A stretch of DNA of 64,000 bases from an uncultured Clostridia bacterium (GTDB lineage Bacteria > Bacillota > Clostridia > Oscillospirales > Oscillospiraceae): the NCBI GenBank assembly GCA_947165595.1, contig CAMVAV010000002.1:1-64000 (forward strand), read 5' to 3'. Below the pieces are notes generated by a model. It had not been told where the DNA came from. It worked only from the letters and a program-made list of their open reading frames with translations, and searched no databases. The position numbers and the translations under genes were made by a program. Position 1 is the first letter of the stretch. Every line of letters begins with the position of its first letter. Below, piece by piece: positions 1-11,288 of the stretch.

Positions 1-586
1 AGTGCCGCACGATGGCGGCGTTGCTCTCGAACTGCGCCATGCGCACGTCCTTCACGCCGGAGCCGACGGGCGGGATGCCCTTCGACGCGACGAACACCAG
101 CACGTCGCAGTCGAACAGCCGCGCCGCGTCCACAACCTCCACCTCGGGAAACGCGCCGTAGTCCCACGGGAGCGAAACCTGTCCCATCTCGAACTCCCAG
201 CGGGCGGTGATCTGCTCCGACAGGTCGCAGATGCCGATGCGCCCGATCACGTCGCCGCCGAGAAGCTTGAGTCCCGTCAGCAGCGTCGAGCCGACGTCCC
301 CGATGGCGAGGATATTGACGCGCTTCTTTCCCTTTTTCGGCGGCTCCAGCATCCGCTCCCAGCCGGGGCGGCTGCGGTTGACGACGGTGAGCCGCCCCTC
401 CTCCAGCGCCCGAAGCGCCGCTTCCTCCGGTTCAAAGCGCGGCAGGCGCGAGGCGTCCAGCACGGAAAGGCCGTGCGGCTCCTTCAGCTGGCCGGGATGG
501 TTCGCCCGGAAGCTGCCGCGCCCGAGGACCGGGTCGCCCTCGATGAGGTAAAAGAGGCGTCCGTTCCGTTCGATGATCTCATGCAT
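1..586 (-). CDS. NAD-binding lactate/malate-dehydrogenase-like protein, 3' end off the window
   Basis: The first 195 codons of a minus-strand gene that runs off the left edge. The start is the ATG at 584-586, which overlaps the end of the upstream 1574-residue gene by 8 bp, so the two are very probably one operon and translationally coupled. After about 75 N-terminal residues a Rossmann fold begins with NILAIGDVGSTLLTG, a glycine-rich dinucleotide loop, and an acidic residue follows the next strand (IGICDLSEQ). The later stretch VFVASKGIPPVGSG and the run towards FESNAAIV resemble the strand-4/loop region of the lactate/malate dehydrogenase superfamily. The catalytic half lies outside the window, so the substrate cannot be named. 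The classification is inferred from the fold motifs only. Confidence 0.7.
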   Translation of the reverse strand, partial: MHEIIERNGRLFYLIEGDPVLGRGSFRANHPGQLKEPHGLSVLDASRLPRFEPEEAALRALEEGRLTVVNRSRPGWERMLEPPKKGKKRVNILAIGDVGSTLLTGLKLLGGDVIGRIGICDLSEQITARWEFEMGQVSLPWDYGAFPEVEVVDAARLFDCDVLVFVASKGIPPVGSGVKDVRMAQFESNAAIVRH

Positions 587-3500
587 AGTCCTGCCCCCTC
601 ATGAGCTGTTCCAGATCGTTTTCCAGATACACCGACGCCGCGAGGCTCGGGTCATAGCGCAGGCACGCCCCCTTGTCGGGGCACAGCGGCAGGATGACCG
701 CCTCGCTGAGCCGGCTGAGCGTCAGGTTGCGCGCGTACTGCTCCCGATACGCCCGCTCCAGCGCCAGCATGACCTCCCGCGCGGACTCGAGGCAGCAGCG
801 GGAGAGCGCGTATACCGCCCGGCCGGAGCACTCGCTTTCAAACGTGGGCGCGGCGTAGGGCAGGATGTGGTTGATCCCCGGCAGCAGCCCCGGCACCGGC
901 GCTTCGGCGCGGCGGACGGTGTTGCCCCCGATGAAGGGGTAGAGCGTGGACTCGATGAACCACTGCCGCAGCGTCGGCACAAAATAGGCGCCGTCCACGG
1001 GGTAGCCCTGCTCGCGCATCAGGTCGCGCCCGTGACCGGAGAGCAGGCCGACGAACACCATGCGGATGTCGATGCCCTCCCGCCGCAGCAGCGGGTCCAG
1101 CGCGCGGATTCGTATGCCGGGGTGCATCACGTCGTCCACGAGGATGACCGGGCGGTCGAAGGACTTGATGATGCGGATCTGGCGCGGAATGGTCGGATAG
1201 TTCGGGAACGCCTCGATCCGGCTCGAGCGGAGGTCCGGCTCGAACACCTTGTCGGTGTGGATGGTCTTGGTGACGGTATTGGGGATCATGCGCCCGCGCA
1301 GCATCTTGCCGAAGGGCACGCACATGCACTCTCCCAGCCTCCGCGGCACGACGGGCGTGTCGGGCACGCGGTTGAACGCCGTGATGCGCTCCAGCAGCCG
1401 CCGATGGATCACGTCGGACGAGAGCGTCAGCACCAGCGAGCCGGGATAGAGCCCCGTCAGCGCGCGCTGCAGGCGGCGGTGCCCGTTTTCAATGGCGGAG
1501 AGCACGCGTTCGTCATGCGCGAGCGGCTCCTGGATCGTGGTCTCCAGATTGCGGATCAGGACCGAGGGCGAGCGCATATCCACCTCCAGCAGCGGCGCGT
1601 CCCCCTCCCGGCGGGAAAAACCCTGGCGCAGCAGCAGCTCCTCCAGCTCCGCGGTCACGCCGCCGCGCGGGCGGCAGAGCGCGTAGACGCAGTCCTCCTG
1701 CAGTGAGCGCGCCAGCACCTCGCTCAAAAGGAGCTGCGCGTCGTCCCCCCGCGCTCGCACGCCGGTGACGAGCAGCGACTTTCCCGCCGCGCGCAGGCGC
1801 ACGCGGTCGCTCAGGGAGGAATCGCCCAGCGCCCCGAACAGCTCCGTCGCGCCGAGGTAGCGCCACGTCAGGAAGCCGGCGCGCCGCCCGCCGCGGCGCA
1901 GGGCGAGCATCTCGTCGCCCTCCCGCGCCGCCTCGGCAAGCTCCGGGCCGTCCGGCTCGCCATAGGGCGCCGTCAGCCACTCGAAGCAGATATCGGCGGC
2001 GGTCAGCAGCGGCTTTTCGTGGCTGTCGCGCAGATAGAGGCCGTTCTGATAGATGAAGTCCTGGATGATGGGGTCGATGAAATGGGAGATGTCGCGGTTC
2101 TGGTCCACGTTCTCCCGGATACGGGTCGAACTGATGTCCTCCAGCTCGGGCGGCAGGCGCAGCTCCATCAGGTCGCCCGTGATGCGGAGCGCCTCCCGGT
2201 CCGGCAGTCCGGTCTGATCGGGGCGGCGGAACACGATGTGGTTGAGCGAGTGGACGGACCACGGCTCCGGCTCCCTGCGGTACGCCGACGCGCCCGCGAT
2301 GACGTCCGCGCCGACGACCAGGTACAACCGCCGCCCGCCGAAGATCGTCCGCAGCCGCCTGAGGTCCGCGGGATTCGCGATGTTGACGGGGATGTCGCTC
2401 GGGAAGAGATAGACGTGGAAATCCCCCGCCACCGACATGTTGATGATCTGGCGGCGCAGCAGGTGCGGCTGCGGCTTCTTCGACCATGAGAACTCGTCCA
2501 CGGCGAGATAGACCTCAAAGCCCATCTCGCGTATTTCCCGCACGATGCCCTTGTGCGAAAGCGTGAAGGGGTCGAAGGTGCCGGGGAAGAACGCGATCTT
2601 GCGCGGGCGCTCGAACCGAAACGCGCCGCGCTCGAGCTTGTGCAGCGTGAGGAAGCGATCTATGTGCGCCAGCGCGGAGGCGCGGTAGAAAAACGTCAGC
2701 GCGTCGGCGTCCGGCGCGGTGTCGACCAAAAACAGCAGCTTGCGGCAGCAGAGCGTGAAAAGCCGCTCCTCCTGCTCCAGCGCGCCGGTGTCGAACAGTT
2801 GCCCGAACACCAGCAGCGCCTCCTGCCGCACCGCCTCGCGGTAGTGGGCGAGCCCCTGCAGCAGCAGCCCGATCAGCTCGTGCCAGCGCTCCGTGTAGCG
2901 CGCCGCCGGCTCGACGAAGCGCCCGCGGTACTCCTCATAGTGCCGCAGCATGACCCCGATCGTGCGCAGCGCGCCCGCGACGGCGCTGTCCGTCGGGGAG
3001 CCCAGCAGGGTCTTGAGCCAGAGCACCTGCTCGTCCAGCTCGCTCGGGTACAGCAGCAGCGCGGTCTGCCCCAGATAGTCGGGGATGTACTTGGAGATGG
3101 CGTACTGTCCCAGCTCGATGCCCTTGCCCAGCTCGACCACGACCTCGTTGCGCTGCTCGCGCCGCAGCAGCGGCAGCACGTCCAGCAGCGCCTGCCCCGC
3201 CGCGTGGCGCACGACCACGCGCTCGGAGACCTTGATGAGGTTGGAAAAGTGCGTGCAGATGTGCAGGATGTTGTCCTTCCCGCTCCGCTCCGCCTGGTCG
3301 CGCAGGATACCGACGCCCACGACCTTGTTGACCCACGGCGTCGCGGTCTTGAGGTTGTCGAGGAAGATCTCCGCGGTGACGTCCTGCTCGAACACCTCGC
3401 GGTAGGCGGACACGTCCTCCCCCGCGCGGCGCAGGATGCGGTAGCGCAGGAACTGCAGCGTCAGGCCCTCTCTCGCGCTCCCCCGCGCGGCGAGCTCCGC

Positions 3501-5303
3501 GATGCGTTTCATCTGCGGATGGTCCTGCGCCAGCGGGCGCTGCGCCTCCTGCAAAAACAGCAGCGCCGCCGTTTGCAGCCGCGTGTCGCCGCAGAGGGCA
3601 AAGTACGCGGCAAACTCGATCAGCTTCGCGCGCGTCTGGTCGCCGTAGTGGTGGGGCGGCAGGCTCTGGATCGCGTCGAGCAGGGTGAACGCCGTGTCCG
3701 GCTCCTTCTCCTCCGGCTTGTCGTAATAGGTCAACAGCACGCCGACGAAGCGCGGCAGCGTCTCCCGCCGTCCGTAGCGCAGCATGGCCGCCACGACGAG
3801 CTTTAGCGTGTAGCCGATGTGCGAGCGCTGCTGGGCGGTGGTCTTGTGGTCGGGGTTGATGATCTTGTCGAGGTACTCCGCCCAGAGGGTGAAGGGCACC
3901 TCCTCCGCGGGGTCGGAGGACGCGTCCTCCGGCAGGCGCTTGCGGTAGACGAGGTGGAACTTCGCGATGATCTGCCCGATCAGCCCCGCCGCCTGACGGC
4001 GGATATCGCCCTCGCGGTGGGTCAGCAGCTCGTAGAGGAAGGCGAGCGCCTGCGTCTTCTGCCGCGCGGACAGATAGGTGCAGTACGCCTCGAAGATGTT
4101 GAGGTAGACGCGCAGCTGCTTCCAGTCGCGGCTGGCGCGCGCCGCCTCGATGATGTTGCCGAAGCGCTGCTCGCCGGAGAGCTGATGCATCAGGCGCAGA
4201 TGGTGCTCCATGGAGAGCAGCATCAGCCGCTCGACGGACTCCTCCGGCGTCATCAGGGCGGGGTCCTTCGCCTCCGCGCTCACGCGCGGCGCGCCGGTCA
4301 GGCCGATGTCCGCGCCGAGCGAGCGGAGGTAGCGCTCAAAGTCCTGCAGCCGGCTGTAGACCAGCTCATAGCGGCGGCGCTTTACCGCGTCGACGTTTTC
4401 GAGCTTCCCGAGGATCACGTCAAAGGCGTCGGCAAGGGAGAAGATCTCCGTCACCTCCCGCCCCTGCGCGTCGCGGCTCTGCTTGCAGCGGACGTCGGCG
4501 TAGATGAGGCACAGCGACTCGGCGGAGAGCGCGTCCAGCTCCAGGTCCCAGGTCGAATGGTTCGAGGCGATGTGGCTGACGGCGTACATCCCGCGCTTTT
4601 CCAGCCAGTACCCCGTGTAGTAGTAGTGCAGGTGCGGCACCGCCTCGCCGGGACGGCAGCCGTATTTGCCGAGGTCGTGCGCCGCGGCGGCGGCGGATAT
4701 GAGTGCGAGGTCGATCTCCTCCCCCGCCTCGCGGACGCCGCGCGCGACGGTCAGCGCGATGTGGTGCACGCCCGCGATATGGCTCAGCGTGCGGTAGGGC
4801 GTCACCTCGTCGCCGAGGCGCATCAGCTCGTAGATGAACTCCCCTCGGAAGGCGGCGAGGAAGCGCTTGTACTCCTCCGCGTGGTCGCAGTCCTCATACT
4901 CCTCCGGTGCGAGAAAGGCGAAGTCGTGCATCGGGTCGAAGGGCAGCGTCCGGCGCTCCCGCTCCAGCAGGAGCTGCAAAACCGTCAAAAACGTCAGCGC
5001 CCCGCGCTCGAAGCCGTAGGCGTCCGGCGCAAAGCGTCCCTGCGGATACATCCGGGCGCGGATAAAATCGTAGCAGAACGCGCACCAGCCCCGCTCCGGC
5101 GCTTTTCCGAGCAGCGGGGCGCAGAGCTCGGCGACGGCGGCGCAGGACAGCCGCTCCCGGATCGGAAGCAGGGCCTCCAGCCGCACGTCGAGCCCCGCCT
5201 CGCGCAGGCTGCGCAGCGCCGCGCGGCGGTCCCGCTCCAGCCCTCTGTCACAAAGCGCGCCCGAAAGCGCGTCCAGCAGCTCGCGCACCGCCTTTTTGCT
5301 CAT
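579..5303 (-). CDS. Giant HD / HEAT-repeat / nucleotidylyltransferase / phosphoribosyltransferase fusion protein
   Basis: A 1574-residue soluble protein with no signal peptide. Residues about 165-300 form an HD phosphohydrolase domain (HHIALTVARGV, then AAAAAHDLGKYG with the HD pair at 209-210). Residues about 400-880 are helical and HEAT-like. Residues 901-1090 are a cytidylyltransferase/NadD-type domain with the nucleotide motif GTFDPFTLSH at 908-917 and the ISSTRIRE signature at 1057-1064. Residues about 1095-1240 look GNAT-like. Residues about 1250-1470 carry a phosphoribosyl-binding loop, VILVDDVMHPG, at 1386-1396. NadD itself is about 200 residues, so this is an unusual fusion. A role in NAD or nucleotide metabolism is inferred from the domains only. 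A good promoter lies at 5337-5365, and the dehydrogenase-like gene overlaps its 3' end. Confidence 0.85.
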   Translation of the reverse strand: MSKKAVRELLDALSGALCDRGLERDRRAALRSLREAGLDVRLEALLPIRERLSCAAVAELCAPLLGKAPERGWCAFCYDFIRARMYPQGRFAPDAYGFERGALTFLTVLQLLLERERRTLPFDPMHDFAFLAPEEYEDCDHAEEYKRFLAAFRGEFIYELMRLGDEVTPYRTLSHIAGVHHIALTVARGVREAGEEIDLALISAAAAAHDLGKYGCRPGEAVPHLHYYYTGYWLEKRGMYAVSHIASNHSTWDLELDALSAESLCLIYADVRCKQSRDAQGREVTEIFSLADAFDVILGKLENVDAVKRRRYELVYSRLQDFERYLRSLGADIGLTGAPRVSAEAKDPALMTPEESVERLMLLSMEHHLRLMHQLSGEQRFGNIIEAARASRDWKQLRVYLNIFEAYCTYLSARQKTQALAFLYELLTHREGDIRRQAAGLIGQIIAKFHLVYRKRLPEDASSDPAEEVPFTLWAEYLDKIINPDHKTTAQQRSHIGYTLKLVVAAMLRYGRRETLPRFVGVLLTYYDKPEEKEPDTAFTLLDAIQSLPPHHYGDQTRAKLIEFAAYFALCGDTRLQTAALLFLQEAQRPLAQDHPQMKRIAELAARGSAREGLTLQFLRYRILRRAGEDVSAYREVFEQDVTAEIFLDNLKTATPWVNKVVGVGILRDQAERSGKDNILHICTHFSNLIKVSERVVVRHAAGQALLDVLPLLRREQRNEVVVELGKGIELGQYAISKYIPDYLGQTALLLYPSELDEQVLWLKTLLGSPTDSAVAGALRTIGVMLRHYEEYRGRFVEPAARYTERWHELIGLLLQGLAHYREAVRQEALLVFGQLFDTGALEQEERLFTLCCRKLLFLVDTAPDADALTFFYRASALAHIDRFLTLHKLERGAFRFERPRKIAFFPGTFDPFTLSHKGIVREIREMGFEVYLAVDEFSWSKKPQPHLLRRQIINMSVAGDFHVYLFPSDIPVNIANPADLRRLRTIFGGRRLYLVVGADVIAGASAYRREPEPWSVHSLNHIVFRRPDQTGLPDREALRITGDLMELRLPPELEDISSTRIRENVDQNRDISHFIDPIIQDFIYQNGLYLRDSHEKPLLTAADICFEWLTAPYGEPDGPELAEAAREGDEMLALRRGGRRAGFLTWRYLGATELFGALGDSSLSDRVRLRAAGKSLLVTGVRARGDDAQLLLSEVLARSLQEDCVYALCRPRGGVTAELEELLLRQGFSRREGDAPLLEVDMRSPSVLIRNLETTIQEPLAHDERVLSAIENGHRRLQRALTGLYPGSLVLTLSSDVIHRRLLERITAFNRVPDTPVVPRRLGECMCVPFGKMLRGRMIPNTVTKTIHTDKVFEPDLRSSRIEAFPNYPTIPRQIRIIKSFDRPVILVDDVMHPGIRIRALDPLLRREGIDIRMVFVGLLSGHGRDLMREQGYPVDGAYFVPTLRQWFIESTLYPFIGGNTVRRAEAPVPGLLPGINHILPYAAPTFESECSGRAVYALSRCCLESAREVMLALERAYREQYARNLTLSRLSEAVILPLCPDKGACLRYDPSLAASVYLENDLEQLMRGQDYA

Positions 5304-5336: not shown

Positions 5337-5365
5337 ATTTTACCATCTTTGGCCGCCGCCGTCAA
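5337..5365 (-). promoter_or_regulatory. Promoter of the 1574-residue fusion gene
   Basis: On the minus strand a -35 TTGACG (5360-5365) and a -10 TAAAAT (5337-5342) are separated by 17 bases. Transcription would start near 5330, about 27 bases before the ATG at 5301-5303. The rest of this 211-bp divergent gap holds a possible plus-strand -10 (TATGAT, 5471-5476) without a convincing -35. Confidence 0.65.
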
Positions 5366-5514: not shown

Positions 5515-6636
5515 ATGGAAAAGGCAAAGGTTTATTTTACCGATTTTCGCACCCAGGTCGGCGTGAACCAGGGCGAGAAGCTGCAAAAGCTCTGCCGTGC
5601 CGCCGGCATCGAAAGCATCGGCTTTGAGGGCAAATTCGCGGCGATCAAGATGCACTTCGGTGAGCTGGGCAACTTCTCCTACCTGCGCCCGAACTACGTC
5701 AGGGCGGTGGCGGACCTGATCCGGGCGCTCGGCGGCAAGCCGTTTTTGACGGACTGCAACACGCTCTACCCCGGCAGCCGCAAGAACGCGGTCGACCATC
5801 TCTACAACGCGGAGGTCAACGGCTTCAACAGCGTCACGACGGGCTGCTACGTCATCATCGCGGACGGCCTCAAGGGCACGGACGAGGCGACGGTCCCCGT
5901 GCCGAACGGCGAGTACTGCAAGGAGGCGTACATCGGCCGCGCGCTCTATGACGCGGACGTGATCGTCTCGCTGACGCACTTCAAGGGACACGAGATGACC
6001 GGCTTCGGCGGCGCGATCAAGAATATCGGCATGGGCGGCGGCAGCCGCGCGGGCAAGATGCAGCAGCACTGCGACGGCAAGCCCACGGTCGACCCGTCGC
6101 TCTGCCGCACATGCAAACGGTGCGCGCGGGAGTGCGGCTCGGACGCGATCTCCTATGACAGCGGCAAGGCGGTGATCGACCAGTCGCTCTGCAAGGGCTG
6201 CGGCCGGTGCATCGGCGCCTGCGCGTTTGACGCGATCTCCTCCGAGCAGGACACGGCGCTCGAGGCGTTGTGCTGCAAGATGGCGGAGTATACGGCGGCG
6301 GTTTTGAGCGGCAAGCCGGCGTTTCACATCAGCCTCATCATGGACGTGTCGCCCAACTGCGACTGCCACGGGGAAAACGACGCGCCGATCCTGCCGAACC
6401 TCGGCATGCTCGCGTCCTTCGACCCGGTCGCGCTCGACCAGGCGTGCGCCGACCTCTGCCTCGCGGCGGAGCCGATCCGCAACAGCCAGCTCGGCGACAA
6501 CCTTGCAAGGCCTGACTGGCACCATCACCACGACTGCTTCCTCGACAGCAACCCGAACGTCCGCTGGAAGGAGACGCTCGCGCACGGCGAAAAGATCGGC
6601 CTCGGCACAAGAGAATACGAGCTGATCCGTATTTAA
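5515..6636 (+). CDS. DUF362-family protein with two [4Fe-4S] clusters
   Basis: A 373-residue cytoplasmic protein. The N-terminal two thirds match the DUF362 family (KMHFGELGN, an FLTDCNTLY segment, and a GFGGAIKNIGMG loop). A bacterial-type ferredoxin pair follows: CRTCKRCARECGSDAI and CKGCGRCIGACAFDAI, each giving the four cysteines of a cubane cluster. Such proteins are thought to handle electron transfer or cofactor-linked reactions, but no substrate is established for the family. The start is set by GGAGAG at 5503-5508, seven bases before the ATG. It is monocistronic: a strong hairpin terminator follows at 6660-6712, and the next gene is convergent. Confidence 0.88.
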   Translation: MEKAKVYFTDFRTQVGVNQGEKLQKLCRAAGIESIGFEGKFAAIKMHFGELGNFSYLRPNYVRAVADLIRALGGKPFLTDCNTLYPGSRKNAVDHLYNAEVNGFNSVTTGCYVIIADGLKGTDEATVPVPNGEYCKEAYIGRALYDADVIVSLTHFKGHEMTGFGGAIKNIGMGGGSRAGKMQQHCDGKPTVDPSLCRTCKRCARECGSDAISYDSGKAVIDQSLCKGCGRCIGACAFDAISSEQDTALEALCCKMAEYTAAVLSGKPAFHISLIMDVSPNCDCHGENDAPILPNLGMLASFDPVALDQACADLCLAAEPIRNSQLGDNLARPDWHHHHDCFLDSNPNVRWKETLAHGEKIGLGTREYELIRI

Positions 6637-6731: not shown

Positions 6732-8132
6732 CTACGCCTCCCGCTTCGCCTTCAGCCACGCCTCGTATCCCGCCGGGATGGACGTGTAGCGCAGCAGGCA
6801 GCCGTCCTCCGTGCGCTTGACCACCTTGGCGAACAGCTCGCCGCCCGCCTCGAGCTTGACGTTGTCATAGACGGCGAGCTCCGTGCCCGTGTCCAGCACC
6901 GCCCCGTCGTGCGCTACGGCGACGATGCCGCCGTAATAGGACTTCGCGCCGCCGTGTTTTCCGTCGAGCCGGCGGAAGCACACGGGGATGGGACGCTCCA
7001 GCGCGCGCGGCACCGTGTCCCTTGTCCTGACCGTCACGTTGTACGGCGCGCCTATGCCCGTCACCTGCGAAAGCACCAGCTCGCCCTGCACGCCCTTGGG
7101 ATAGACGGTCATCTCCTGCGCGATCTCCAGCTCCGCCGCGCAGAGCCTCCGCGTCATCGGGGAGAGCAGCACCTGTCCGCCCACCGTATAGCTTTCGATC
7201 CTGCCGCAGAGGTTGACGTGGCTGCCGACCACGCCGTACTTGGTGCGCTTTTCCGAGCCGATGTTGCCGACGACGACCTCGCCGGTGTTGACGCCGATGC
7301 CCATTTCCAGCTCCGGGTAGCCCTGTCGGGCGTTCCAGACGTTTACCGCCTCCATCTGCGCCTCCATCTCCAGCGCCGCCGCGACGGCGTCCTCCGCGTG
7401 CGTCTCCGAAGGGACGGGCGCGCCGAAGATCGCCAGGATCCCGTCGCCGATGAATTCGATAATCGTGCCGCCGCGCGCCTCGATCACCTCGGTCATCTCG
7501 CCGAGGTAATGGTTGAGCATCGTGATGAGCTCGTTCGCGTCCATGCGCTCGCTCATGGCGGCGAAGCCGCGCAGATCGCTCATAAGGATGGAGAGCGTCC
7601 GCTTTTTCCCGCCGAGGGCAAGCCCGTCCGGCGTCTCGAGCAGCTGCCGCACGATCTCGTCGGAGAGAAAGCGGCCGAAGGTCTCGCTCAGGAGCTTGTT
7701 GCGCAGCTCCAGCTGCCCGTTCAGGGCGCGGATGCGCTCCATCGCACGCACGGCGTCGCGCAGGCCGGCCAGCTCCGTCATGTCGCTGAGCACGACGATG
7801 ACGCCGACGCTCCTGCCCTCGTCCGTCAGAAAGGAGGTCACCATGCGCAGCTGCCTGGTCTCCGTCCCTGTGAAGTAGGGCACGATCGCCTCGTGCGGCC
7901 GCTCCCGGTCGTAGACCGCGTCGAGCACCGTCTGCGCGAAGGCGTCGTTCTCCTCACAGTCGAAAAAGCACTCGCCGAAGCTCCTGTGCAGAAGCTCCGC
8001 TTCCTCCCGGGACAGAATCCGCAGAGCGGAGGGATTCAGGCAGATGATCTTACCGTCGAAGCCGACGACCATCACTCCCTCCGACATATCCCGCATGATG
8101 CTGTTTCGGATCAGCTCGCTCTTGTCCGCCAT
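6732..8132 (-). CDS. PAS-linked class III adenylate/guanylate cyclase
   Basis: A 466-residue protein starting at the ATG at 8130-8132 behind a GGGGGAGA ribosome site. Residues about 5-125 form a PAS domain (SEGVMVVGFDGKIICLNPSA). A short linker leads to a class III cyclase domain at about 178-345. Both metal-binding aspartates are visible: D186 in MSDLRGF and D230 in EFIGDGILA. The transition-state pair N307 and R311 (VNLCGRIE) is present. The substrate-selecting lysine of adenylate cyclases is Glu226 here, and the partner position is Gly300. GTP as substrate is therefore possible but unproven. The C-terminal about 100 residues resemble a weak PilZ-like beta domain. The HD-GYP gene lies 39 bp upstream on the same strand, suggesting co-expression. 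Confidence 0.85.
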   Translation of the reverse strand: MADKSELIRNSIMRDMSEGVMVVGFDGKIICLNPSALRILSREEAELLHRSFGECFFDCEENDAFAQTVLDAVYDRERPHEAIVPYFTGTETRQLRMVTSFLTDEGRSVGVIVVLSDMTELAGLRDAVRAMERIRALNGQLELRNKLLSETFGRFLSDEIVRQLLETPDGLALGGKKRTLSILMSDLRGFAAMSERMDANELITMLNHYLGEMTEVIEARGGTIIEFIGDGILAIFGAPVPSETHAEDAVAAALEMEAQMEAVNVWNARQGYPELEMGIGVNTGEVVVGNIGSEKRTKYGVVGSHVNLCGRIESYTVGGQVLLSPMTRRLCAAELEIAQEMTVYPKGVQGELVLSQVTGIGAPYNVTVRTRDTVPRALERPIPVCFRRLDGKHGGAKSYYGGIVAVAHDGAVLDTGTELAVYDNVKLEAGGELFAKVVKRTEDGCLLRYTSIPAGYEAWLKAKREA

Positions 8133-8171
8133 CAACGTCTCCCCCTGTCCCCGCCGCGACGCGGGAGCCGC

Positions 8172-11100
8172 TCACACCTTCGCCTGCGCTTCCTCGTCCT
8201 GCTTGCTGCGGATGTTCTCGATGTTCTCCATGCTGCCGCCGCCGTGGTCGTCCTTGGCGCGCAGCTCGCCCTTGTCCACCAGACGCAAAAACGCGTCCAC
8301 CACGTCCGGCTCCAGCTGCGTGCCGGAGACCTCGCGGATGATGGAGACGACCTTGTCGAAGTTCATACGGTTGCGGTAGGGGCGGTTGGAGTACATCGCG
8401 TCGAAGCAGTCCGCCACCGCGATGATCTGCGCCACGCGCGGGATCTCGTCGCCCTTGAGATGATTGGGATAGCCCCGCCCGTCCGGGCGCTCGTGGTGCG
8501 ACTGCGCGCCGACGGACAGCTCCGGCATGATGCTGATGTCCTTGAGTACCTCATAGCCCTGGGAGGTGTGGGACTTGATCTTTTCAAATTCCTCGTCCGT
8601 CAGCTTTCCGTTCTTGTTGAGCACCTCCGGCGGTACGCCGATCTTGCCGATGTCGTGCAGCAGGGCGATGCGGTAGTATTTCTCCACCGTCTCCTTGTCG
8701 TACCCCAGCTCCTCCGCGAGCCGCGCCGTGTATTGGGCGACGCGCGTGGAGTGGCCGTTGGTGTACTTGTCCTTCATATCGATCACCTTCGCGAACGCCT
8801 CGGTGATCTCGCGGATAAAGGTCATGCTCTCCTGCTGCTTCTTTTCCAGCTTCTGCGTCTTTCCGTGGACATAGAGCTGCACGCACGCCGCCAAAAGCAG
8901 CAGCGCCAGCAGACCCGAGACGATAAAAAACCACGTCTGCTCGTAAAACGCCTTCTCCTTGACGATCCGGACGGACACCTCCTTGTTTCCGCGTCCCATG
9001 GAATCGCGAAGCTGGATCACAAAGTCGTAGGTCCCGCCGCGCAGATTCGTGTAGTCCACCGGCACCAGCTCGCTGCGGCTGACGGTGGTGCGGTTTTGCT
9101 CGAAGCCCTCCAGCCGGTAGCTTACCTGCGGGTTGCTCAGGGAATAGCTGAAGACATAACTGTAGACCGTCAGCTTCCGCACGTCGGAGGGAATCGTGAA
9201 CGAGCCGTCCGCGTCGGGATAGACCCGCTCCCCGTCCGTATCGAGGAAGGGAACGGAGACCTTGAGGTCGTTGACGTTTTCAAAGGTGGCTTCGATATTG
9301 ACCTTGCAGACGCCGGTGCCTCCCGCGATATACAGGTCGCCGTCCGCGCTCAGATCGCTGTAGGAGTTCGCCGTCGCGATGCAGGGCAGGCCGTTGGCAA
9401 TGCTGTAATAGACCGGGTCGATCTCGCCGTTGGCGACCAGCTCCTCCGTCGGGACGACGTAGATGCCGTTGCTCGAGAGCACCCACATGTCGCCCTTGCT
9501 GTTCTCGTAGAGGTCGAAGTTGTTCGTGTAGGGGAACTTCCGCACCGTCGTCACCTCATAGTCGGGGGTCATGTAGGCGATGCCGCTGCTGGCGACGATC
9601 CAGATGATGTCCCGCTTCGGATCGTGCTTGAGACGCATCACGATGTCCGAGGGCAGCCCGTCCTCCACGTTGATGTTCCGGGCGCCTCTCCCGTCGATGA
9701 TGTAGATGCCGCCGCCGTTGCTGCCGAGGACAATGTCGCCGTTCAGCCCCTCCTCGACGCAAAGGCTCTCCGTGTCGGCGATGCCGTTTTCCTCGCCGTA
9801 GGAGGCGGTGACGCGGTCCCCCCGGATCACGTTCACGCCACCGGTCAGCGCGACGAGGATGCTCCCGTCCTCCCTTTCGCAGACGGAGCGCAGGCTGTTG
9901 GACAGCAGGCCGTCGTCCTGCGTGAAGGCGGTCAGCTCGCCGCGGTCATAGCGCAGCAGCCCGTATTTGCGCCAGGTGGATATCCACAGACGCCCGCGGC
10001 TGTCGCGGATGACGGAGCGGATGCGGCAGCCGTCGAGCAGCGCGATCAGGTCGTCCGCACCCAGGTCCGCGCCGGAGGCGGTCTCCGCCTTCGTCAGCGG
10101 GAGCTCGGACACCGGGCCGTTCCCGTCCAGCACGATCAGTCCCCCGTCCGTGCCGACGAACAGCTTCCCGTCGGACACACAGGTGGAATTTGCCACCGTC
10201 TCGGGCAGATCGTAACGCGCGAACAGGTCGGAAAACCGGTTCGGCACCACCTTCATCACGCCCTGCCGCGTGGAGGTAAACCAGAGATTGCCCTGATAGT
10301 CCGTCATCACGTGGCCGACGTTGCTGCTCATCGGCAGGTTCTCCAGCACGCGGAACTTTCCGTTCTCCAGCACGCCGATGCCGTTCGAGGCGCAAATCCA
10401 GAGCTTGCCGTCGATGTACTCCATCTGCTGGATATAGCTCAGCGGCTGAATGTCGATCGGCTTCAGGTCCGTGAGCGTGTCCCCGAGGGAGGCGCGGTAA
10501 AAGCAGAAATCCCCGGCCTCAAAATAGACCTTTCCCGGATGCTCCGGATCGGGCAGGATGGAGCCCGCGCCCTTGACCGGGCTGTCCTCCACGCTGAAGA
10601 AGCTCAGCAGCGCGCCGTCCTTTATCCTCAGCATATCGCCCAGGTCCGTCGTCCCGTAGAGGACCCCGTCGTTTCCCGCCCGAAGGTTTCGCATGTTCGC
10701 CTCGGCGAGGGCCTCGTCCTCCATCATGGCGAGCTTCCCCTCCGGGTCGATCGTCGCAATGCCGCAGGTGGTGGCGACGTAGATCGTCCCGTTTGGATCC
10801 TCCGCGATGGCGCGGGTGTGGGCGGAGCGCATGCCGTCCAGCTTGCCCCACATGCGCAGCTCTCCGCGCTCCATGACCGCGACGCCGTTGTCGTTCGTCC
10901 CGATCCACAGGCGGTCGCGGCTGTCCACATAGAGGCACTTCACGCTGCTCAGCCCCGTGGTGGAATCCATGCGCACGAAGGTGTTGCCGTCGTAGCGGAT
11001 CAAGCCGCCGTAGCTGCCGATCCACAGAAAGCCGTCGCCCGTCTCGGCGATGGCGTTCGCCTCCGAGGTCGGCAGGCCGTTTGTGTTGTTGTACAGCACC

Positions 11101-11288
11101 GCCGAAAAGCCCTCCGTGCGTCCCGTCGGATCGACGGAGACGGGGCGGTTTTCGGTGCCCGCGGCATTGAGCGCCTGCGGTCCCGCGCCGAAGCACGGCG
11201 TCTGCAGCGCGAAAAGCAGGCACAGCAGCGCGCAGAGCACAAAGCGGCGCAGGCCGTCCGTTTGAAGCTTTTCTTTCCGTCTGTTCAT
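8172..11288 (-). CDS. Extracytoplasmic beta-propeller sensor with HD-GYP c-di-GMP phosphodiesterase domain
   Basis: A 1038-residue membrane sensor. A basic N-terminus and hydrophobic stretch (LCALLCLLFALQ) form the signal sequence. Residues about 60-690 contain repeated two-component-regulator propeller blades (for example GDGFLWIGSYGGLIRYDG and DSRDRLWIGTNDNG). A Y_Y_Y-type beta domain follows (YRLEGFEQN, LRGGTYDFVIQL). One transmembrane helix lies at about 785-807, then an HD-GYP domain with HDIGKIG at 878 and HHERPDGRGYP near 930-942. Both metal-binding and GYP signatures are complete, so it should hydrolyse c-di-GMP in the cytoplasm in response to an outside ligand, probably a polysaccharide fragment or surface cue (inference). 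A consensus promoter at 11337-11365 drives it and the cyclase gene downstream. Confidence 0.9.
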   Translation of the reverse strand: MNRRKEKLQTDGLRRFVLCALLCLLFALQTPCFGAGPQALNAAGTENRPVSVDPTGRTEGFSAVLYNNTNGLPTSEANAIAETGDGFLWIGSYGGLIRYDGNTFVRMDSTTGLSSVKCLYVDSRDRLWIGTNDNGVAVMERGELRMWGKLDGMRSAHTRAIAEDPNGTIYVATTCGIATIDPEGKLAMMEDEALAEANMRNLRAGNDGVLYGTTDLGDMLRIKDGALLSFFSVEDSPVKGAGSILPDPEHPGKVYFEAGDFCFYRASLGDTLTDLKPIDIQPLSYIQQMEYIDGKLWICASNGIGVLENGKFRVLENLPMSSNVGHVMTDYQGNLWFTSTRQGVMKVVPNRFSDLFARYDLPETVANSTCVSDGKLFVGTDGGLIVLDGNGPVSELPLTKAETASGADLGADDLIALLDGCRIRSVIRDSRGRLWISTWRKYGLLRYDRGELTAFTQDDGLLSNSLRSVCEREDGSILVALTGGVNVIRGDRVTASYGEENGIADTESLCVEEGLNGDIVLGSNGGGIYIIDGRGARNINVEDGLPSDIVMRLKHDPKRDIIWIVASSGIAYMTPDYEVTTVRKFPYTNNFDLYENSKGDMWVLSSNGIYVVPTEELVANGEIDPVYYSIANGLPCIATANSYSDLSADGDLYIAGGTGVCKVNIEATFENVNDLKVSVPFLDTDGERVYPDADGSFTIPSDVRKLTVYSYVFSYSLSNPQVSYRLEGFEQNRTTVSRSELVPVDYTNLRGGTYDFVIQLRDSMGRGNKEVSVRIVKEKAFYEQTWFFIVSGLLALLLLAACVQLYVHGKTQKLEKKQQESMTFIREITEAFAKVIDMKDKYTNGHSTRVAQYTARLAEELGYDKETVEKYYRIALLHDIGKIGVPPEVLNKNGKLTDEEFEKIKSHTSQGYEVLKDISIMPELSVGAQSHHERPDGRGYPNHLKGDEIPRVAQIIAVADCFDAMYSNRPYRNRMNFDKVVSIIREVSGTQLEPDVVDAFLRLVDKGELRAKDDHGGGSMENIENIRSKQDEEAQAKV

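Follow-up and report, generated by a model that had tools for sequence, protein, structure and literature searches.

A giant fusion protein with HD, HEAT-type, NadD-like, GNAT-type and PRTase-like parts heads a three-gene operon in gut and rumen anaerobes

Background

Why should one bacterial protein carry an HD domain, a long helical region, a cytidylyltransferase-type signature and a loop typical of phosphoribosyltransferases (PRTases)? This question is raised by an open reading frame at the very start of a 64,000-nucleotide stretch of DNA (the window) from an uncultured Oscillospiraceae bacterium. The window opens contig C2 of a draft genome of 2.83 Mb in 165 contigs. A first-pass annotation described the product as a single-frame fusion of HD, HEAT-like, NadD-type, GNAT-like and PRPP-binding domains, and proposed an assembly-line or stress-responsive enzyme of NAD or nucleotide metabolism. 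Here we ask whether the fusion is real, which of its domains are likely to be active, which genes accompany it and what the whole may do.

The fusion gene and its distribution

The single frame claimed at first was confirmed: 1574 codons on the minus strand with no internal stop (Table 1), conserved over the full length in dozens of genomes. Homologues are about 1540 to 1660 residues long with an unchanged order of domains, and the architecture is intact even at about 33% identity, the lower end of the family range (about 33 to 83%). Such full-length conservation indicates that the fusion is more than a chance event, and the identical architecture in dozens of genomes rules out a misassembly. 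In the contig collection, 25 loci carry a fusion of the same length and order, some of them clipped by contig ends; they include Flintibacter muris, Lawsonibacter, rumen MAGs and gut MAGs. Long matches were found in 42 of the 301 genomes of the family to which the window belongs, not counting a 43rd genome whose match is a fragment next to a contig end. In a sample of the phylum, 8 of 399 genomes carry it. The nearest named relatives are rumen MAGs filed under Oscillospiraceae/Ruminococcaceae (L010 and L017), at 82-83% identity, and the fusion is also present in Acetoanaerobium noterae, which belongs to another order. The fusion is therefore a real family with a patchy distribution. Its phylogenetic tree has long branches, and no claim of gene transfer is drawn from it.

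A phage or plasmid origin of the gene was rejected. The fusion has no match among phages and viral contigs, and its lone "plasmid" match is NZ_CP154629.1, a chromosome-like Acetoanaerobium record of 2.6 Mb that is labelled plasmid and nearly unannotated in the collection. One genome bin, Clostridium sp. RGIG9275, holds two copies of the fusion (L020 and L023), one with the operon partners described below and one without.

A consensus scan for sigma-70-like promoters found one candidate against 0.1 expected (Table 1), and no RNA leader was found by Rfam within the window.

Table 1. Coordinates of the fusion gene, its parts, its candidate promoter and the two partner genes. Positions are those of the window unless preceded by L080; residues are those of the fusion protein.
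Feature	Position	Strand	Basis and remarks
Candidate sigma-70-like promoter, TTGACG-17-TAAAAT	5337..5365	-	33 nt upstream of the fusion start codon; consensus match only
Whole fusion gene	579..5303	-	1574 aa, operon gene 1; stop-free frame, conserved at full length across dozens of genomes
Residues 1-141, helical N-terminal region	4881..5303	-	AlphaFold and conservation; least conserved part
Residues 142-340, HD domain with YqeK-type ligands	4284..4880	-	PF01966 and NF045665 matches; ligands in 37/37; YqeK aligned in order (weak score)
Residues 353-892, HEAT-type alpha solenoid	2628..4247	-	AlphaFold pLDDT mostly 80-95; Foldseek importin/HEAT matches; weak HEAT Pfam matches
Residues 900-1092, NadD-like nucleotidyltransferase	2028..2606	-	GTFDPFTLSH and ISSTRIR; PF01467, NadD NCBIfam, hhalign, PDB 8aih/2h29
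Residues 1095-1251, degenerate GNAT-type fold	1551..2021	-	AlphaFold and Foldseek (GCN5/PCAF); 6/157 positions invariant
Residues 1265-1445, type I PRTase-like core	969..1511	-	VILVDD-xHxGxR loop and conserved flexible loop PNTVTKTIHTDKVF; Foldseek OPRT/XPRT/UPRT; loop residues near-invariant
Residues 1446-1574, conserved helical C-terminal extension	582..968	-	Motif RNLTL...LPLCPDKG; AlphaFold; 23/129 positions invariant
Gene 2, LDH/MDH-like	1..586	-	Truncated at the contig end; the rest lies on contig C29 (L080:13895-14530)
Gene 3, FMN-reductase/Fe-S-flavoprotein-like	L080:12808-13887		On contig C29, after gene 2

Domains of the fusion protein

The AlphaFold model of residues 1-900 (built with a 23-row alignment; pLDDT 86.7, pTM 0.82) is almost wholly helical, and shows a helical N-terminus followed by the HD domain and a long alpha solenoid. 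The top PDB matches of this model in Foldseek are HEAT proteins of the importin/karyopherin type, for example Kap121 and importin beta. The helical, HEAT-like region proposed from the letters is thus borne out.

The same is true of the HD domain. Pfam PF01966 matches residues 173-268 below its cut-off and is seen in 18 of 23 homologues, and in the alignment the six ligands (H175, H209, D210, H226, H249 and D270) are invariant in all 37 homologues. Their order, H..HD..H..H..D, is that of the YqeK-type HD phosphohydrolases (COG1713), and YqeK aligns to the fusion in that order. The hhalign score is weak (E 0.017), and the YqeK family model is absent from the NCBIfam matches of 23 fusion members at E 0.01. 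The apparent likeness to YqeK rests on motif order, not on score. The closest HD model in NCBIfam is the DVU_1551 family NTP transferase (NF045665; residues 137-277, E 2e-7). In that family, however, the HD part is preceded by an NTP transferase domain, and the fusion reaches 30 bits where the cut-off is 315.

The NadD-type domain was confirmed as well. PF01467 matches above its cut-off, NadD models cover residues 900-1091 (E 1e-8), profile-profile comparison with true NadDs gives 98.6% in hhalign, and NadD structures 8aih and 2h29 are matched in the PDB. As in bacterial NadD (TIGR00482/NF000840), the fold is of full length and the GTFDP..H and ISSTxIR motifs are present; in 37 rows, T914-L-S-H917, with S for the G of the (H/T)xGH-type motif, and ISSTRIR are invariant or nearly so. 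Unlike bacterial NadD, the fusion has TxSH for HxGH and scores only about 30 to 59 bits over model positions 2-194, below the TIGR00482 cut-off of 112. Judging by eye from the alignment, the ATP-side motifs are kept and the acceptor side is altered: PPHK and W of NadD are absent, and the fusion has WSKKPQPH and Y1008. A separate true NadD, above the curated cut-off, is encoded in all 32 fusion-bearing genomes tested, so that the fusion appears to do something else. Its identity as the housekeeping NadD was rejected on this ground.

In the home genome, the true NadD (L119, G000:C123:1500-4200) shares a chain of about 400 residues with a YqeK-type HD domain, and the same NadD-HD fusion is found in several family members (L122-L130). 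The YqeK domain of JCVI-Syn3A hydrolyses both NaAD and wrong-base analogues of NaAD, and NadD is known to work as a pair with an HD phosphohydrolase (PMC9426524). NadD-YqeK, as known from mycoplasmas and from contig C123 of the home genome, comes closest in function as a precedent for a chain that has both HD and NadD, and shares with the giant fusion a NadD-type adenylyltransferase and a six-ligand HD domain. In contrast to NadD-YqeK, the giant fusion has the two in reversed order with a 540-residue HEAT solenoid between them, carries additional GNAT and PRTase-like domains, falls far below the NadD cut-off and occurs beside a true NadD.

The last third of the protein was modelled separately (residues 1089-1574; pTM 0.81, pLDDT 75). 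For the first part of this model, Foldseek returns GCN5/PCAF and other GNATs with a probability of about 1.0. The fold of the GNAT-like domain claimed at first is therefore seen in the model, whereas its acetyl-CoA loop is not: no RxxGxG/A loop follows the LLVTG strand in the alignment, as read by eye. The GNAT part also has the lowest conservation within the catalytic half of the fusion. It is probably not an acetyltransferase.

The claim of a PRPP-binding domain likewise survives in its fold, and in part in its loop. The domain reading of the first-pass annotation was right in nearly all points and passes the two checks that could have refuted it, since the C-terminal part has a PRTase-type fold in the model and the HD metal ligands are invariant. 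The AlphaFold model supports a PRTase-type fold: Foldseek matches OPRT (2wns_A) and XPRT (2fxv_A) with probability 1.00 and an rmsd of 2.0-2.3 over 62-65 columns, at E-values of only 0.003-0.015, and UPRT is likewise matched. Searches with the sequence of this part give marginal scores, and PF00156 stays below its cut-off, with matches in 2 of 23 members (best E 0.036). In the VILVDDVMHPG loop, D1390 is present in 37 of 37 homologues and D1391 in 36, and G1396 is kept. The core fold and the hhhhDD loop are shared with type I PRTases (OPRT, XPRT, APRT, UPRT). Unlike these, the fusion has HxGxR in place of the TGxT of the PRPP loop hhhhDDxxxTGxT in nearly all of 37 homologues, a long near-invariant extra loop, PNTVTKTIHTD, in the 37-row alignment, and the conserved C-terminal extension. 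Since the part of the loop that takes the 5'-phosphate is changed, the domain may not use PRPP. By analogy, a flexible loop of low pLDDT (residues 1335-1368) may lie at the predicted active site. A link to PRTases of the ter-operon type was considered and dropped: the Pfam family of such proteins is absent even at E 10, and the literature gave nothing useful.

The three-gene operon

The fusion heads a three-gene operon, followed by gene 2 and gene 3. The overlap with a dehydrogenase-like gene noted at first is correct: the start codon of gene 2 lies at 586-584 and the stop codon of the fusion at 581-579, an overlap of 8 nt. The contig ends within gene 2, and the home genome has the remainder of that gene at the end of contig C29. 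The end of C29 and the start of C2 are identical over exactly 55 nt, as expected for a break in the assembly graph.

Gene 2 encodes a divergent LDH/MDH-like protein in which PF00056 remains below its cut-off. It shares the Rossmann domain with L-lactate/malate dehydrogenases, and D121, H280 and R256 are invariant. Unlike those enzymes it has an A-x-G-D-V-G loop in place of GxGxxG and, in an alignment read by eye, M253 where LDH has its catalytic Asp, with the His kept. It also carries a new N-terminal extension of about 80 residues. Gene 3 resembles FMN reductases and Fe-S flavoproteins in its flavodoxin fold, its FMN_red domain and its conserved cysteine motif (C207-x2-C210-x4-C215-x8-C224), and differs from them by a new N-terminal extension of about 160 residues.

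The fusion is followed by gene 2 and then gene 3 in most loci with enough flanking sequence, and this order is the same in the home genome, in rumen and gut Oscillospiraceae and in Acetoanaerobium. The exceptions are three genomes (G618, G747 and G875) in which the fusion and genes 2-3 are on different contigs, and the paralogue L023, which has no adjoining partner. Of the 399 phylum genomes, the same 8 hold the fusion, gene 2 and a full-length gene 3; the remaining gene 3 matches there are partial and score less than 53 bits. In another set of genomes, gene 2 is present in 37 of 37 fusion-positive genomes and in 0 of 29 fusion-negative ones, some of these 29 being called negative only by a less sensitive single-protein search. 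Three of the 29 belong to the window's own genus, and both the fusion and gene 2 are absent from them. This strict co-occurrence is the strongest evidence that the three proteins form one functional unit. The conserved pairing that was worth looking for thus turned out to be a three-gene module, and the link to redox enzymes of the NAD type is stronger than the first-pass annotation had claimed.

Discussion

A search of open-licence papers gave no description of the fusion or the operon, and no family model in Pfam, NCBIfam or PADLOC fits the fusion or the module. The domains are individually known; it is their combination, and the three-gene module, that match no searched family model or found paper. 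A defence system was rejected, as none of the three operon proteins matches a PADLOC-DB model. The constant company of two redox enzymes suggests an undescribed small pathway that makes or polices a nucleotide cofactor.

Our preferred reading, to which we give a probability of about 0.4, is that the fusion joins several enzymes on one scaffold to build and edit a nucleotide or dinucleotide outside housekeeping metabolism, with clean-up by the HD domain and with the product handled by the two partner oxidoreductases. Using PRPP or a similar donor, the PRTase-like domain would place ribose-5-phosphate on a base or a base-like acid. From its fold and its invariant GTFDP..H and ISSTxIR motifs, the NadD-like domain would couple this mononucleotide to the AMP part of ATP, so that an NAD-like dinucleotide forms. 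By analogy with the YqeK fused to NadD, the HD domain could hydrolyse wrong or surplus pyrophosphate-linked products. The HEAT solenoid and the degenerate GNAT fold may hold the sites or the partner proteins together, and the LDH/MDH-like and FMN-reductase/Fe-S-flavoprotein-like partners may finish, reduce or use the product. This multi-enzyme reading is consistent with the conservation of the catalytic residues of three enzyme domains in 37 diverse homologues, the separate NadD, the strict co-occurrence, the recurrent operon order and the precedent of NadD with HD (PMC9426524). Against it stand the structural nature of the PRTase call, the changed 5'-phosphate part of the PRPP loop, the assignment of HD to YqeK by motif order, the split contigs and the partnerless paralogue.

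A bolder form of the multi-enzyme reading, which we regard as unlikely, is a self-contained natural route to a non-canonical NAD-like dinucleotide or a similar nucleotide cofactor: the PRTase-like and NadD-like domains would make it, HD would control its quality and two dedicated oxidoreductases would use it. If the product is indeed a distinct nucleotide cofactor, it would be a natural, and rare, example of an orthogonal NAD-like cofactor. Even otherwise, the module is present in many gut and rumen anaerobes and absent from near relatives, and offers a tractable pathway with cultured hosts in Acetoanaerobium noterae and Flintibacter muris.

Repair of the NAD(P) pool is also rather improbable. 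Here the NadD-like and HD domains would make and break dinucleotides, clearing away NAD analogues that are wrong or damaged, while damaged nicotinamide rings would be restored by the redox partners. The proofreading precedent of YqeK-NadD (PMC9426524) and the NAD(P)-type partners speak for such a role, but it has no clear place for the PRTase-like domain, the home genome already has its separate NadD fused to HD/YqeK, and so strict a patchiness, extending to genomes of the same genus, would be odd for housekeeping repair.

The fusion might instead be a regulatory or sensory scaffold of little or no turnover, whose enzyme folds sense PRPP, NaMN/NAD and ATP and whose solenoid signals to the partner oxidoreductases. 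The length of the solenoid, the degenerate GNAT fold and the changed PRPP loop would suit a sensor; the complete, invariant metal set of HD and the NadD catalytic motifs argue for catalysis, and we hold this alternative to be doubtful.

Nicotinate, quinolinate and nicotinamide PRTases have type II folds that lack the PRPP loop of the fusion. The alternative route of NAD synthesis or salvage proposed at first, in which the PRTase would supply NaMN and the NadD domain NaAD, agrees with NadD models being the best match of that domain and with the apparently NAD(P)-linked partners, but is very improbable given the true NadD in every genome tested, the lost acceptor side and a PRTase-like core that is of type I and has a changed loop. 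The suggestion that the fusion is stress-responsive found no support.

Beyond the operon, the window holds a gene divergent from the fusion (5515-6636, plus strand) for a DUF362 protein with 4Fe-4S domains, which is not a conserved neighbour in related loci. It is followed on the minus strand by a gene for a protein with PAS and adenylate/guanylate cyclase catalytic domains (6735-8135). Adjoining the cyclase gene is one (8172-11288, minus strand) for a 1038-residue protein in which a two-component-regulator propeller (Reg_prop, Y_Y_Y) is fused to an HD_5 output domain of the HD-GYP type.
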